Positions 4,134-8,775 of a DNA stretch of 64,000 bases are shown here, in pieces. Each line of letters starts with the position of its first letter. The stretch's first letter is position 1. Source of the stretch: Haloterrigena sp. KLK7 (lineage in GTDB: Archaea > Halobacteriota > Halobacteria > Halobacteriales > Natrialbaceae). The translations under genes were made by a program, and so were the position numbers. The notes beneath the pieces are model-generated. The model saw only the letters and a list, made by a program, of their open reading frames with translations. It searched no databases and had not been told where the DNA came from. The stretch covers positions 744,001 through 808,000 of the forward strand of contig NZ_CP149787.1 of NCBI RefSeq assembly GCF_037914945.1, written 5' to 3'.

Positions 4134-5159
4134 CTACAGTTCGCTGTCTGGCCTCACGACGACCTTCCCGAATCCCTCCCGGTTCTCGATGATCTCGTGG
4201 GCGCGGGGCGTCTCGCTCATCGGCAGCTCCTCGCGGATCGCGGGCTCGAAGGTGCCGTCCCAGACGAGGTCCATCACCTCGTCGACCTGGTCGGGCGTGG
4301 CCATCGTCGAGCCGATGATCTGGAGCTGTTCCCAGAAGATCCGCGGGATGTCGGTCTCGGGGTTCCCCCCACCGGTACCGCCGCAGGTGACCAGCCGGCC
4401 GCCCTTGGTGAGGCTCTTCAGCGAGTCCTGCCAGGTGGGCGCGCCGACGTGTTCGACGACGACGTCGACGCCGCGGCCGTCCGTCTCCGCTAAGACCCAG
4501 TCGGCGAAGTCCTCCTCCTCGTAGTTGCAGACGTGGTCGGCGCCGTGCTCGCGGGCGTAGTCGAGTTTCTCCTCCGTACTGCCGGTCGCGTAGACCTCCG
4601 CGCCCGCGTAGTCGGCGATCTGGAGGGCGGCGTGGCCGACCCCGCCGCTGGCGCCCAGCACGAGGACCTTTTCGCCGGCCTCGAGGTCGGCGCGGTCGAT
4701 CAGCATCCGCCACGCGGTCTGGAACACCAGACAGCTCGAGCCGGCGACCGCCCAGTCGACGTCCTCGGGGACGGGGATCAGGTTATCTTCGGGGACCGCG
4801 GCGTACTCGGAGTGGACGCCCTGGACGTGCTCGCCGATGATGTGGAACCGGGGATCCAGCGTGGGATCGTCCATCCGCAGGTCGCCGACTCCGGCCGTGA
4901 CGGCGACGCGGTCGCCTTCCTCGAAGCGAGTGACGTCGGCGCCGACCTCCTCGACGACGCCGGCGGCGTCGCTGCCCGGAACGTGGGGCATCTCGAGGTC
5001 GATCCCCGGCATTCCCCGTCGCGTCCAGATGTCGAGGTGGTTCAGCGCCGCCGCCTTCACGTCGACCAGCACCTCGTCGCGGTCGACCTCCGGGTCCGGA
5101 TACTCCCCGTACTCGATGACGTCGGTGTCGCCGTGCTCGGTGATCTTGACTGCCTGCAT
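4134..5159 (-). CDS. MDR-family NAD(P)H:quinone oxidoreductase / zinc-type dehydrogenase homologue
   Basis: The first Met that makes a standard medium-chain dehydrogenase start is at 5159 (MQAVKITEHGDTDVIEYGE); the longer open frame upstream is not homologous-looking. The 341-residue protein has the GroES-like N-domain (NHLDIWTRRG, HVPGSDAAGVVEEVG) and a Rossmann domain with nucleotide motif VLVLGASGGVGHAALQ. The usual zinc-ligand GHE motif is replaced by GSD, which favours the zinc-independent quinone-oxidoreductase branch, although annotators often call these alcohol dehydrogenases. It is divergent from the ABC operon at 5302, and the palindrome at 5230-5246 lies in the shared upstream region. 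Confidence 0.75.
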   Translation of the reverse strand: MQAVKITEHGDTDVIEYGEYPDPEVDRDEVLVDVKAAALNHLDIWTRRGMPGIDLEMPHVPGSDAAGVVEEVGADVTRFEEGDRVAVTAGVGDLRMDDPTLDPRFHIIGEHVQGVHSEYAAVPEDNLIPVPEDVDWAVAGSSCLVFQTAWRMLIDRADLEAGEKVLVLGASGGVGHAALQIADYAGAEVYATGSTEEKLDYAREHGADHVCNYEEEDFADWVLAETDGRGVDVVVEHVGAPTWQDSLKSLTKGGRLVTCGGTGGGNPETDIPRIFWEQLQIIGSTMATPDQVDEVMDLVWDGTFEPAIREELPMSETPRAHEIIENREGFGKVVVRPDSEL

Positions 5160-5229
5160 ACTCGCGTATGACGGAAACTCCGTCCATAACAGTTGGGCTA
5201 CCAGCACGCCGTCGGCGGTCGACGCTCGG

Positions 5230-5257
5230 ACTTTGTGACACAAAGTAACTTTGTGAC
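5230..5257. promoter_or_regulatory. Palindromic operator plus third half-site
   Basis: ACTTTGTG-A-CACAAAGT (5230-5246) is a perfect 8+1+8 inverted repeat. A third copy of ACTTTGTG follows immediately at 5248-5255, 18 nt (nearly two helical turns) from the first. The site lies between the divergent oxidoreductase (start 5159) and the ABC operon (start 5302), next to the TATA-like AACTATTATG at 5261-5270. It is the natural operator for the winged-helix regulator encoded at the end of the operon; that pairing is inferred. Confidence 0.7.
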
Positions 5258-5301
5258 GGAAACTATTATGTGCTGAGAACGTGTCAGCAGTAATAAGAAT
5301 A

Positions 5302-6174
5302 ATGTCAACGGAGACACACGGCGGTCGCGACCCGACCGACGACCTCGAGGGGAGCCGACGGGGGCGAGACGTCCGGCGCTGGCTCGCACAGGCGAGCGCG
5401 TTCACCGGACGGAGCATACAGGAGGTCCGCAACAGCTGGCTGATGCTGGGCTGGGTGATCGCGTTTCCGGCGATCATGTACCTGTTTTTCGTCGCACAGG
5501 GAACGGAGGGGCCGGCGACGGCCGACGCGATCACATCGATCGGCATCGGCGTCATGGGCGCGCTGTTCGTCTGTCTCTACCTCTTCGGCGACCAGCTCGC
5601 GGGCGACCTCGAGGACCGTCGGTACGCGGCCTACCGGTCGATGCCGCTGTCGCCCGCGGCCGATCTCGCCGGACGGATGGCCGCCGGACTCGTCCTCGCG
5701 GTCGCCGCGTTCGCGGCGACGATCCTCGCGGGGGCGGCGACCGGCGCCGAGTACGGGCTGCGCGGGCCCGAGTCGATCCCGATCGTCGCCGTCGCGGGGC
5801 TGCTGACCTGCGTCTTCTGGATGGTCGTCGCGATCCCGATCGTGCTGGCCGCCGACAACGAGCGCGTCGCCGAGTGGCTGACGTCGATGGTCGCGGTCGG
5901 CGCCTTCGTCCTCACCGGCTTCAACGGCGCACTGGCCGAGCTCTCCCCGATCGAGGGCGAGGTGCTGAACTACCTCCCGAACACCCTTCCGACGCGGCTG
6001 CTCGTCTACCATCTCGTCCCCGCCGAAAACTGGGCCGAACTCGGCGCCGCGCCGCCGGCGATGCCGACCGGCCTCGAGTTCGTCGCCCTGCTGGCCGGCT
6101 ACGCGATCCTCGCGCTCGCCGTCGGGACGGCCCTGTTGAACCGGTACGGCTACGACCGGGGGTGGTGGCCGTGA
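5302..6174 (+). CDS. ABC-2 type exporter permease
   Basis: An ATG at 5302 is preferred to an in-frame GTG at 5281, since the protein then begins with a polar tail (MSTETHGGRDPTDD) before the membrane part. The 290-residue product has six hydrophobic segments, among them LMLGWVIAFPAIMYLFFV, IGIGVMGALFVCLYLFGDQL, LVLAVAAFAATILAGAA, VFWMVVAIPIVLAA and FVALLAGYAILALAVGTALL, as expected for ABC2-membrane proteins. Its stop overlaps the GTG of the ATPase gene by 4 nt. It forms the membrane channel of an efflux or membrane-stress exporter whose cargo is unknown. Confidence 0.85.
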   Translation: MSTETHGGRDPTDDLEGSRRGRDVRRWLAQASAFTGRSIQEVRNSWLMLGWVIAFPAIMYLFFVAQGTEGPATADAITSIGIGVMGALFVCLYLFGDQLAGDLEDRRYAAYRSMPLSPAADLAGRMAAGLVLAVAAFAATILAGAATGAEYGLRGPESIPIVAVAGLLTCVFWMVVAIPIVLAADNERVAEWLTSMVAVGAFVLTGFNGALAELSPIEGEVLNYLPNTLPTRLLVYHLVPAENWAELGAAPPAMPTGLEFVALLAGYAILALAVGTALLNRYGYDRGWWP

Positions 6175-7073
6175 GCGACGCCGTCGTCACCGCGACCGGC
6201 GTCCGGAAGTCCTTCGACGAGGAGGGCGTCCTCGAGAACGTCGATCTCACGGTCGAGGACGGCGAGCTGCTGGTACTGATGGGGCCGAACGGCGTCGGGA
6301 AGTCGGTGCTGCTCTCCTGTCTGGCCGGCAGCGACCGCCCCTCGAACGGTTCGGTCTCGGTCCTCGGCGAGCCGGCGACGGCCCGCACGGACACGACGAG
6401 TTTCCTCCTGCAGGACGCGCTCTGCCACGAGAAGCTCACCGGCCGGGAGAACGTCGCGTTCTACGACCGGCTCCACCCCGACTTCACCGACGCGTGGCGC
6501 GACTACGTCGAGCGGTTCGAAATCGACGACGCCCTCGCAAAGCCCGTCGAGGACTACTCCGGCGGAATGAAACGCAAGCTCGAGCTCTCGATCGCGGCGA
6601 GCATCGACGTCCCGATCTACCTCCTCGACGAGCCGACCGCCGCGCTGGACCTCACGACGATCCAGACGGTCCACGAGCTGTTCCGCGAGAAGCGGGCCGC
6701 GGGGAAGACGCTCGTCGTCGCCAGCCACCGGCCGATGGACGCCGACGTCGCCGATCGGATCGCCTTCCTCGCCGACGGCGGTATCGCCGCGACCGGCACG
6801 CCCGACGAGCTGCTGGCGTCGCTGCCGGCGATCGTCGAGACGGGCACCGCGCACACCGGCGAGCTGACCGACGCGATCGCGGGCGAGCCCTACGCCGTCG
6901 CCGGCAACGTCCGCGGATTCCTGCCGGCCCGCGGCGACGTGGACGACCGCGACGGGGCGGCGCTCGTCACCGAGACGGCCGCCGCGGCCGGCATCGAACC
7001 GGACGCGCTCGAGGTCGTCGAGCCGACCTACACCGACCTCTTTAACTACTACACGAACGCTGATGCGAACTAA
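6171..7073 (+). CDS. ABC transporter ATP-binding protein
   Basis: GTG at 6171 sits in a GTGA overlap with the permease stop, giving a 300-residue ATPase. Walker A is GPNGVGKS, the Q-loop is LLQDALCHEKLTG, the signature is YSGGMKRKL (a close variant of LSGGQ), and Walker B is IYLLDEPTAALD with H-loop VVASHRP. A C-terminal extension of about 80 residues, rich in Ala and Asp, follows the nucleotide domain, as in many ABC-2 ATPases. It energises the permease encoded upstream. Confidence 0.9.
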   Translation: MSDAVVTATGVRKSFDEEGVLENVDLTVEDGELLVLMGPNGVGKSVLLSCLAGSDRPSNGSVSVLGEPATARTDTTSFLLQDALCHEKLTGRENVAFYDRLHPDFTDAWRDYVERFEIDDALAKPVEDYSGGMKRKLELSIAASIDVPIYLLDEPTAALDLTTIQTVHELFREKRAAGKTLVVASHRPMDADVADRIAFLADGGIAATGTPDELLASLPAIVETGTAHTGELTDAIAGEPYAVAGNVRGFLPARGDVDDRDGAALVTETAAAAGIEPDALEVVEPTYTDLFNYYTNADAN

Positions 7074-7094
7074 CGCTCGCGGGAGGTGACCACG

Positions 7095-7673
7095 ATGACC
7101 GACGAAAGGAGAGACGTCGATCCGGCCGCTCTCGAGGCGGAACTGGCCGAGATCAAGGGAGCGATCGGACTCGCCGAGGACCACCCCTACTGGTGGCGGT
7201 TCTGGCTCGTCGAAGGGGTCGGTGCCGGGCTCTGTTTCACGCTCATTCAGTTCTGGTTCCGCGGCGGTCCCCGCCTGTGGATCCTCGCCGCCGTCGCCGG
7301 CCTGCTCGGTCTCGAGACGCTCGTCAAACGGCGAATCAAGGCGGCCTACGAACCGCCGACGAGGGGACTGCACGATACGCGGCTCTGGCTGCTCGCCGCC
7401 CTCGCCGGCATCGGCGCCGTGATCGTGGGTCTCCTCCCGGTCTTCGATGCGCTCGGCGACCGGAACGCGATCCGGCTCGCGCTGGTCTCCGCGGGGGCGA
7501 TCGTCGGCAGCGGCTACATCTATATGGGCCAGTTGCTCGGCGCGTACGACATCCGCGCGATCGACCGCTACGCGTTCTACGCCGGCGGCGCGTGGATCCT
7601 CGTCCTCGCGGCCGTCATCCCCCACGTCCCCGCCGCCGAGGGCTGGGAGTACGCCGTCCTCGCCCGGCGCTAA
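7095..7673 (+). CDS. Integral membrane protein of the ABC operon
   Basis: The ATG at 7095 is preceded by GGAGGTGA (7082-7089), a strong Shine-Dalgarno sequence for an internal operon gene, so it is chosen over the GTG at 7086, which lies inside that motif. The 192-residue protein has a 20-residue acidic N-terminus and then five hydrophobic helices in the region 36-185, including LWILAAVAGLLGLETLV, LLAALAGIGAVIVGLLPVF and AWILVLAAVIPHV. It lies between the ATPase and the regulator, so it may be an accessory or sensory membrane subunit. No family name is claimed. Confidence 0.75.
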   Translation: MTDERRDVDPAALEAELAEIKGAIGLAEDHPYWWRFWLVEGVGAGLCFTLIQFWFRGGPRLWILAAVAGLLGLETLVKRRIKAAYEPPTRGLHDTRLWLLAALAGIGAVIVGLLPVFDALGDRNAIRLALVSAGAIVGSGYIYMGQLLGAYDIRAIDRYAFYAGGAWILVLAAVIPHVPAAEGWEYAVLARR

Positions 7674-7674
7674 C

Positions 7675-7971
7675 ATGGAACTCGACAAACTCGTCCACCA
7701 GCCGACCCGCCTTCGCATCTTCGCCCACCTCTACGCCACCGGCGAGACGAGCTTTACGGAACTGACCGAGGAACTGGAAATCACCGAGGGGAACCTCGCC
7801 ACACACATCGAGCGGATGGAGGACGCCGACTGCGTCGCCGTCGACAAGGAGTTCGTCGACCGCAAGCCGCGGACCAGCTACCGGCTCACCGAGCGCGGCG
7901 AGGAGCTCTTCGAGGACCACATCGAGACGCTCGAGGCGCTGATCGACGGCCTCGAGACCGACGACGCGTAG
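7675..7971 (+). CDS. Winged-helix transcriptional regulator (98 aa)
   Basis: The gene begins 1 nt after the preceding stop. The protein is a single winged helix: MELDKLVHQPTRLRIFAHL, the helix-turn-helix SFTELTEELEITEGNLATHI, and a wing with RKPRTSYRLTERGEELFEDH. This is the short MarR/ArsR-like type (HTH_34) that dimerises through its C-terminal helix. Being the last gene of the exporter operon, it is the likely repressor acting at the palindrome at 5230-5246; autoregulation is inferred from position. Confidence 0.88.
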   Translation: MELDKLVHQPTRLRIFAHLYATGETSFTELTEELEITEGNLATHIERMEDADCVAVDKEFVDRKPRTSYRLTERGEELFEDHIETLEALIDGLETDDA

Positions 7972-8031: not shown

Positions 8032-8775
8032 ATGACCGAGACGGACTCGAGCGAGGACCGGGAGACCGAAGGGACCGAGGAGGCCCCGGAAGCGCCGCCG
8101 GGGGAAAATCGCGACGCGGACGAGCAGCGATCCGACGAGAGAGACGAGATCGACGGCCGCACGCTCGGCGTCAGCGTCGTGACGATCGCGACGGACCGGT
8201 CGCTCGAGTCCGACCCGGCCGGCGAGGCGATCGTCACGGGGCTGAAGAAGGCCGACCACGAGATAGTCACGCGGGAGCACATCGGGAGCGAGCACGACCG
8301 CGTCCAGTCGATCATCTCGCGGATGCTCGACCGCGACGACATCGACGTCATCGTCACCGGCGGGTCGACCAGCGTCGAACCCGGCGACGTCACCGTCGAG
8401 GCCGTCGAACCGCTGCTCGGGAAGCGGCTGGCCGCGTTCGAGGACCTGTTCACCTCGCTGGCCTACGAGGCGGTCGGCACTCGCGTCATCGCGGCGCGGA
8501 CAATTGCCGGCGTCACCGAGGGAACGCCGGTGTTCTGCCTGCCCGGGAACGAGGACGCGGTGCGACTCGCCCTCGACGAGATCATCCTGCCGGAGATCCA
8601 CAACCTCGTCAGCCTCGCTCGCGAGGACATCGCACAGGACAGGTGGGCCGTCGACGAAGCCGCGCTCGAGGACGGCGAGGCGACCGAGGACGAACGCGAG
8701 ACCGAGACGACGGACGCGGACGAGAGCGAGCCCACCGAGGAACCCGCATCCGAACCCGACGACGGAGGCGAGTGA
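8032..8775 (+). CDS. moaB: MoaB/MogA-family molybdenum cofactor biosynthesis protein
   Basis: The central part of this 247-residue protein (about 40-190) matches MoaB: LGVSVVTIATDR at the start of the fold, DVIVTGGSTSVEPGDVTVEA (the molybdopterin-binding GG-S/T loop) and FCLPGNEDAVRLALDEIILPE. Family members adenylylate molybdopterin or bind it. The N-terminal 40 and C-terminal 45 residues are acidic, low-complexity, halophilic extensions. A TATA-like GTTTTACC lies about 28 nt upstream, so transcription is probably leaderless. The next gene starts 1 nt after its stop. Confidence 0.85.
   Translation: MTETDSSEDRETEGTEEAPEAPPGENRDADEQRSDERDEIDGRTLGVSVVTIATDRSLESDPAGEAIVTGLKKADHEIVTREHIGSEHDRVQSIISRMLDRDDIDVIVTGGSTSVEPGDVTVEAVEPLLGKRLAAFEDLFTSLAYEAVGTRVIAARTIAGVTEGTPVFCLPGNEDAVRLALDEIILPEIHNLVSLAREDIAQDRWAVDEAALEDGEATEDERETETTDADESEPTEEPASEPDDGGE

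Follow-up and report, generated by a model that had tools for sequence, protein, structure and literature searches.

What reads the palindrome that lies between a reductase gene and an exporter operon in a haloarchaeal genome, and which of these genes does it serve? The window (the whole 64-kb stretch of DNA that we analyzed) comes from KLK7, a haloarchaeon close to Haloterrigena salina, whose regulator is 90% identical to the small regulator encoded here (REG). Open reading frames and domain matches bear out the layout proposed in a first-pass annotation of this DNA, with an MDR reductase, an exporter operon, and a winged-helix protein encoded last (Table 1). The exporter operon runs in the order permease, ATPase, MEM, REG and is followed by a MoaB-like gene. 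The match of the permease to its Pfam family was below the family cut-off (E 8e-5; 22.7 bits against 26.9), as was the best NCBIfam match of the ATPase, the DrrA-like TIGR01188.

Table 1. Features of the exporter locus, in window positions.
Feature	Position	Strand	Description
Zinc-type MDR reductase	4134-5159	-	Divergent neighbor of the exporter operon, probably outside the circuit
O1	5230-5247	+	Perfect palindrome ACTTTGTG-A-CACAAAGT (5230-5246) plus A
O2	5248-5265	+	Degenerate repeat of O1 in tandem, ACTTTGTGACGGAAACTA, at a distance of 18 bp
Probable BRE and TATA	5258-5270	+	BRE GGAAA (5258-5262) and TATA-like TATTATG (5264-5270), assigned from conserved blocks and consensus
ABC-2 type permease	5302-6174	+	ATG at 5302, kept in close relatives; Pfam PF01061
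ABC ATPase	6171-7073	+	GTG start, overlaps the permease stop; Pfam PF00005, E 8e-24
MEM	7095-7673	+	192-aa multi-pass membrane protein, the usual partner of REG
REG	7675-7971	+	98-aa winged-helix regulator; Pfam HTH_34; last gene of the exporter operon

The palindrome is genuine and conserved, and chance falls far short of explaining it. Its half-site ACTTTGTG occurs three times in the window, every time at this site, while shuffled windows held a mean of 0.30 copies and none of 100 shuffles reached three. An operator matrix trained without the window gave its two top places in the 64 kb at 5229 (29.8 bits) and 5247 (23.2 bits), with the next at 7.6. Positions, shuffles, and matrix scores thus confirm the palindrome and third half-site of the first-pass annotation. 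The third ACTTTGTG, at 5248-5255 and 18 nt from the first, is more than a half-site: it begins a second full 18-bp operator, weaker than the first, and O1 and O2 form direct repeats with 83% identity. The exact 17-mer occurs once in the 4.64-Mb genome. As a family motif it proved too strict, being present in only 1 of 392 genomes of the order, that of KLK7 itself.

Our search for REG orthologs covered 125 genomes from the family and 392 from the order, and for the loci found we extracted the upstream DNA. Most of the haloarchaeal loci fetched keep the exporter genes linked to MEM and REG, and relatives carry the palindrome ACTTTG-N5-CAAAGT upstream of the permease. A symmetric 19-bp matrix was built from 33 family loci, with the window excluded, and tested against dinucleotide shuffles at P ≤ 0.01. 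The first-pass annotation had staked its proposal on finding the same site near homologous operons; we find it before 20 of 21 held-out operons from other haloarchaeal families, 19 of them at the P floor, and the single miss is a haloarchaeal paralog (L115). These 21 come from 36 fetched loci: L116 (the same locus as L005) and the divergent L143-L147 were set aside, and loci without a permease match were inspected only and lie outside this count. A search of the 125 genomes for the tandem-site pattern returned nine matches against none for the reversed control; by coordinate comparison, eight of the nine fall at the REG operon, the exception being in G039. Operons consisting only of MEM and REG have the operator directly before MEM (L049, L050, L058, and L126), and L119 has a site, though its MEM is unmatched by homology. 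The operator also accompanies a divergent subfamily whose members share about 37-39% identity with REG (L077, L078, L143, L144, and L147). Inspection of the region upstream of L061, a REG gene without a recognizable MEM, revealed no operator.

The same association is found among Bacteria. The first bacterial relatives, in Elusimicrobia (L007) and Dormibacteraeota (L008, whose phylum is named Chloroflexota in this analysis), have a site just upstream of the MEM-REG pair. The bacterial sample comprised these two, 22 plasmid-borne loci (the haloarchaeal L167 is uncounted), and the best-scoring 29 loci of L008's phylum. With the archaeal matrix at P ≤ 0.01, sites precede MEM-REG pairs in 14 of 19 plasmid loci, in both L007 and L008, and in 13 of 18 Chloroflexota loci; loci without MEM had none (0 of 2 on plasmids and 0 of 9 in Chloroflexota). 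In total, 29 of 39 MEM-REG pairs have a site as against 0 of 11 REG genes without MEM (Fisher P = 9e-6, kinship ignored), and the archaeal matrix accepted no site at the remaining 10 pairs. Note that "without MEM" here means no upstream open reading frame with three hydrophobic segments, a crude scan; Kocuria and Streptomyces NBC_00212, both scored in this way, have an annotated small upstream gene. The Chloroflexota loci without MEM number 9, not 11, as L183 and L191 were dropped: both lie near contig ends, where the scanned region was not upstream. L180 and L182, with fewer than 300 bases of upstream region, were counted as misses. No accepted site was found at these two, at L175 (P = 0.025, of the ACTCT type), or at five Chloroflexota loci with Gly42 that have upstream sequence and lack MEM. 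In the phylum of L007, the regulator occurs in 1 of 149 genomes.

Bacterial sites, mostly 25-86 bases upstream of the annotated MEM start, occur in Thermomicrobium, Bacteroides finegoldii, Persicobacter, Aureimonas, Streptomyces, and Rhodococcus, among others. On one Chloroflexota plasmid, the site starts at 1816, after a predicted promoter whose end is at 1803, and so lies just past the predicted -10, a blocking position that suits repression; a scan of the Thermomicrobium site found no promoter. A simple match count was unconvincing for the Chloroflexota regions (3 of 29 at 9 or more matches, against about 3% per region in shuffles). These sites were resolved by the matrix, with CTCTG and GTTTG halves permitted.

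REG matches the HTH_34 family (PF13601) at 79.2 bits, well over the cut-off of 27, and PadR (PF03551) only marginally, at 28.8 bits against a cut-off of 27. It falls below the cut-offs of the MarR family (PF01047, 23.0 bits against 24.6) and of the SdpR family (NF033789, 17.1 against 100). The predicted structure (pLDDT 90.2) is a winged helix with a long C-terminal helix, and the recognition helix spans approximately residues 38-50. The nearest solved structure is 1ub9, PH1061 of Pyrococcus horikoshii (profile E 1e-17; Foldseek E 4.8e-7), with which REG shares a T-x-GNL-x-x-H recognition helix; in a second structural aligner, PH1061 ties with PadR/LmrR and MarR-type regulators at Z of about 13. 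PH1061 was deposited as a hypothetical protein, and we found no operator for it in the literature searched.

We compared every REG column with every half-site base across the 102 loci with accepted sites, which form 33 clusters at 70% identity; kinship was corrected by weighting of these clusters only, and the sites were accepted by a CTTTG-trained matrix that is biased against other forms. For base -7 (the C in aCTTTG), the top column was residue 38 (z = 7.6, next 2.7), and for base -5 it was residue 42 (z = 10.7, next 4.1). Both residues lie within the predicted recognition helix. We disregarded the scans of bases -4 and -6, where z was high but information close to zero. Gly42 is present in all eight loci that have ACTCT on both half-sites and in none of the other 94. 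Where both half-sites have G at -7, residue 38 is non-acidic in all seven loci; where both have C, it is so in 3 of 66. The eight ACTCT/Gly42 loci belong to Chloroflexota and two actinomycetes (Hoyosella and Rhodococcus) that are less than 50% identical to the Chloroflexota ones, so Gly42 occurs in at least two far-apart groups. The window's own combination, E38 and A42 with ACTTTG, fits this code. Two residues of the recognition helix thus covary with two operator bases, which is our strongest ground for concluding that REG very probably reads the O1/O2 operator.

The same covariation speaks against an unlinked regulator reading the operator while REG acts elsewhere, an explanation to which we give next to no weight. 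The site is linked to the MEM-REG pair in both domains, and only two exact copies of CTTTGN5CAAAG exist in the KLK7 genome, the second at C1:241583. A different question is whether the operator also governs the divergent reductase, forming one detoxification regulon. The two transcription units do share an intergenic region of 140 bp, and a reductase at least 70% identical adjoins the operon in 15 of 40 fetched family loci, by our reading of the gene lists. Such a regulon is nevertheless very unlikely, since O1 begins 71 bp from the reductase ATG, beyond the reductase's own TATA-like element, and many exporter operons without an adjoining reductase retain the operator. All four genus genomes with the operon that we examined (G000, G024, G025, and G026) have the operator. 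The two that lack the operon, G023 and G027, have an intact reductase promoter and no operator (best matrix scores -6.5 and -8.9). Because these two genomes keep the reductase promoter without the operator, synteny assigns the operator to the exporter operon, not to the reductase. The first-pass annotation had suggested that the circuit might sense an electrophile or other stress handled by the reductase and exporter. That role is unsupported: synteny speaks against the reductase as target, and the sole cysteine of REG, C53, is restricted to one clade, which speaks against thiol sensing. From the "complete local circuit" it had described, the operator remains with the last-gene regulator as its likely reader, a pairing favored by the covariation of residues 38 and 42 and by the MEM-REG-site linkage; the reductase drops out, and MEM had been overlooked.

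How REG would act depends on where the operator lies relative to the promoter. PMC4983044 gives the haloarchaeal consensus as CGAAA for the BRE and TTWT for the TATA element. Among 69 haloarchaeal loci aligned on O1 (including the 33 training loci, without L115 and the duplicates L004-L006), an AAA block lies 12-15 bases beyond the O1 19-mer, and an A/T block (TATA) lies at 16-22. O1 sits just upstream of the BRE at a near-fixed distance, and O2, where present, usually merges with the BRE. A second operator unit is found in 35 of the 69 loci, exactly 18 bp away in 30 of them; the other 34 have O1 alone, which overlaps neither BRE nor TATA. In the window, GGAAACTA, which makes up the right half of O2, doubles as the exporter promoter's probable BRE. 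Across 67 operon promoters, scored without ordinary promoters as a control, the BRE matched CGAAA exactly in 2 and differed by one base in 14, by two in 41, and by three in 5; it was unrecognized in 5. Of the 62 promoters with a recognized BRE in this uncontrolled tally, 60 thus depart from CGAAA.

The closest known counterpart is TFB-RF1 (PF1088) of Pyrococcus furiosus. As described in PMC5937170, TFB-RF1 is an activator that recruits TFB and whose operator, TCTG-N5-CAGA, lies immediately upstream of a weak BRE. Its gene comes last in an operon, behind that of a protein with four membrane segments (PF1089), and a further operon that it activates encodes a multidrug-type ABC exporter. REG is likewise small, encoded last behind the gene of a multi-pass membrane protein, and probably autoregulated, and O1 resembles the TFB-RF1 operator in being a palindrome of 5-bp spacing that directly precedes BRE and TATA. 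The likeness is one of gene arrangement and of operator form and position. The window's half-sites differ (TTTG-N5-CAAA in place of TCTG-N5-CAGA), the operators are tandem instead of single, and the exporter is in the REG operon instead of a separate one. The TCTG operator form does occur with the Gly42 relatives of Chloroflexota and Actinomycetota. In the literature searched, mostly outside subscription journals, we found no description of HTH_34 (PF13601) operators, or of the TFB-RF1 circuit, in haloarchaea or bacteria.

We therefore consider, with a probability of about 0.5 for the reading as a whole, that REG controls its own operon by activating it from O1, while O2 acts as a brake and MEM supplies the input. 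A dimeric REG would bind the tandem O1 and O2 and control all four genes from permease to REG. On O1, it most likely assists TFB in reaching the non-consensus BRE, the way TFB-RF1 works in Pyrococcus. As REG accumulates, it would also occupy O2, the right half of which is the BRE itself, and close the promoter, so that the circuit would limit itself. MEM would bind or free REG in response to changes in the envelope or the exporter substrate; the signal most likely comes via MEM, as REG is too small to accommodate a separate sensor domain, and this role for MEM is one that we infer from gene order alone. Activation is only slightly favored over repression in our analysis, because the form and position of O1 match TFB-RF1 and the TCTG form is found in the Gly42 bacterial relatives. 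The near-fixed O1-BRE-TATA geometry and the presence of a CGAAA BRE in only 2 of the 67 promoters of the uncontrolled tally also suit activation.

REG might instead be a plain autorepressor, whose dimers on O1 and O2 block TFB/TBP until a ligand or capture by MEM frees the promoter, as with LmrR or SdpR-SdpI. This is a serious contender, to which we give a little less than an even chance. LmrR, of the PadR family, represses a multidrug ABC exporter. REG has the same fold class, with PadR/LmrR regulators among its structural neighbors, and belongs to an ABC exporter operon, but it fits HTH_34 far better than PadR. In Bacillus subtilis, SdpI sequesters SdpR at the membrane, the two being encoded by one autoregulated two-gene operon (PMC1626106). 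MEM and REG are similarly a multi-pass membrane protein and a small regulator, which makes that system a model of how they might work, although the gene order is reversed and the SdpR-family cut-off excludes REG. The overlap of O2 with the BRE puts it where a repressor classically sits, and the bacterial sites lie close to the MEM start codon; both count against activation. The missing sites at 10 of the 39 bacterial MEM-REG pairs and at L115 likewise weigh against the favored reading as a whole. Against autorepression stand the 34 of 69 haloarchaeal loci that have only O1, clear of BRE and TATA, and the fact that the single tested archaeal counterpart, TFB-RF1, activates (PMC5937170).

Activation from O1, if it holds, would extend the TFB-RF1 circuit, which has so far been studied in Thermococcales, to the genetically tractable haloarchaea. 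Whichever sign applies, a local observation becomes a testable regulator-operator family, from haloarchaea to Bacteroides and Streptomyces. A readable protein-DNA code would predict operators for many genes labeled merely "transcriptional regulator." The family would equally allow one small regulator to be tested directly on two transcription machineries. A bolder reading, which we hold to be rather unlikely, is that one cassette of operator, MEM, and HTH_34 regulator crosses Bacteria and Archaea under one code, in which residue 38 reads base -7 and residue 42 reads base -5. This would hold although Bacteria and Archaea differ in their promoter machinery, and the sign of the cassette's output would have switched, with promoter-blocking repression in bacteria, TFB-recruiting activation in archaea, and a tandem brake in many haloarchaea.

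MEM matched no Pfam family, and an HMM search for its homologs across domains returned only L007, marginally. Profile-profile comparison gave 90.8% between the haloarchaeal and Chloroflexota sets, 98% between the two bacterial sets, and 27% between the haloarchaeal and plasmid sets (the plasmid set included L007 and L008). Common descent of MEM across the two domains is likely on these profile comparisons. Its predicted structure, of low confidence (pLDDT 65.4), has a short N-terminal helix followed by five long helices.

Downstream of the exporter operon is a MoaB-like gene, which adjoins it in many genomes. In a genome of the same genus that lacks the operon (G023), this gene abuts the reductase gene, which marks the operon as an inserted or lost block.

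Coordinates of the features discussed
Feature	Position	Remark
MoaB-like gene	window 8032-8775	downstream of operon
L148 palindrome	G000:C1:241583-241597	host genome

The L148 palindrome, the sole exact CTTTG-N5-CAAAG in the host genome besides that of the window, has an operator score of 24.1 bits and is a possible second target of the winged-helix regulator (REG). TTATATGG directly follows it, resembling an operator set against a TATA box. Haloarchaeal promoters at L112-L114 apparently carry three or four operator-like units in succession.

Operators of the REG type were not found at Chloroflexota loci L188 and L194-L197, where regulators with glycine at residue 42 lack the membrane-protein (MEM) neighbor; these regulators may read a different operator. 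On a Bacteroides finegoldii plasmid (L160), the cell-envelope gene creD comes after an operator-bearing MEM-REG pair, and in Thermomicrobium (L157) the pair precedes an ABC ATPase and permease.
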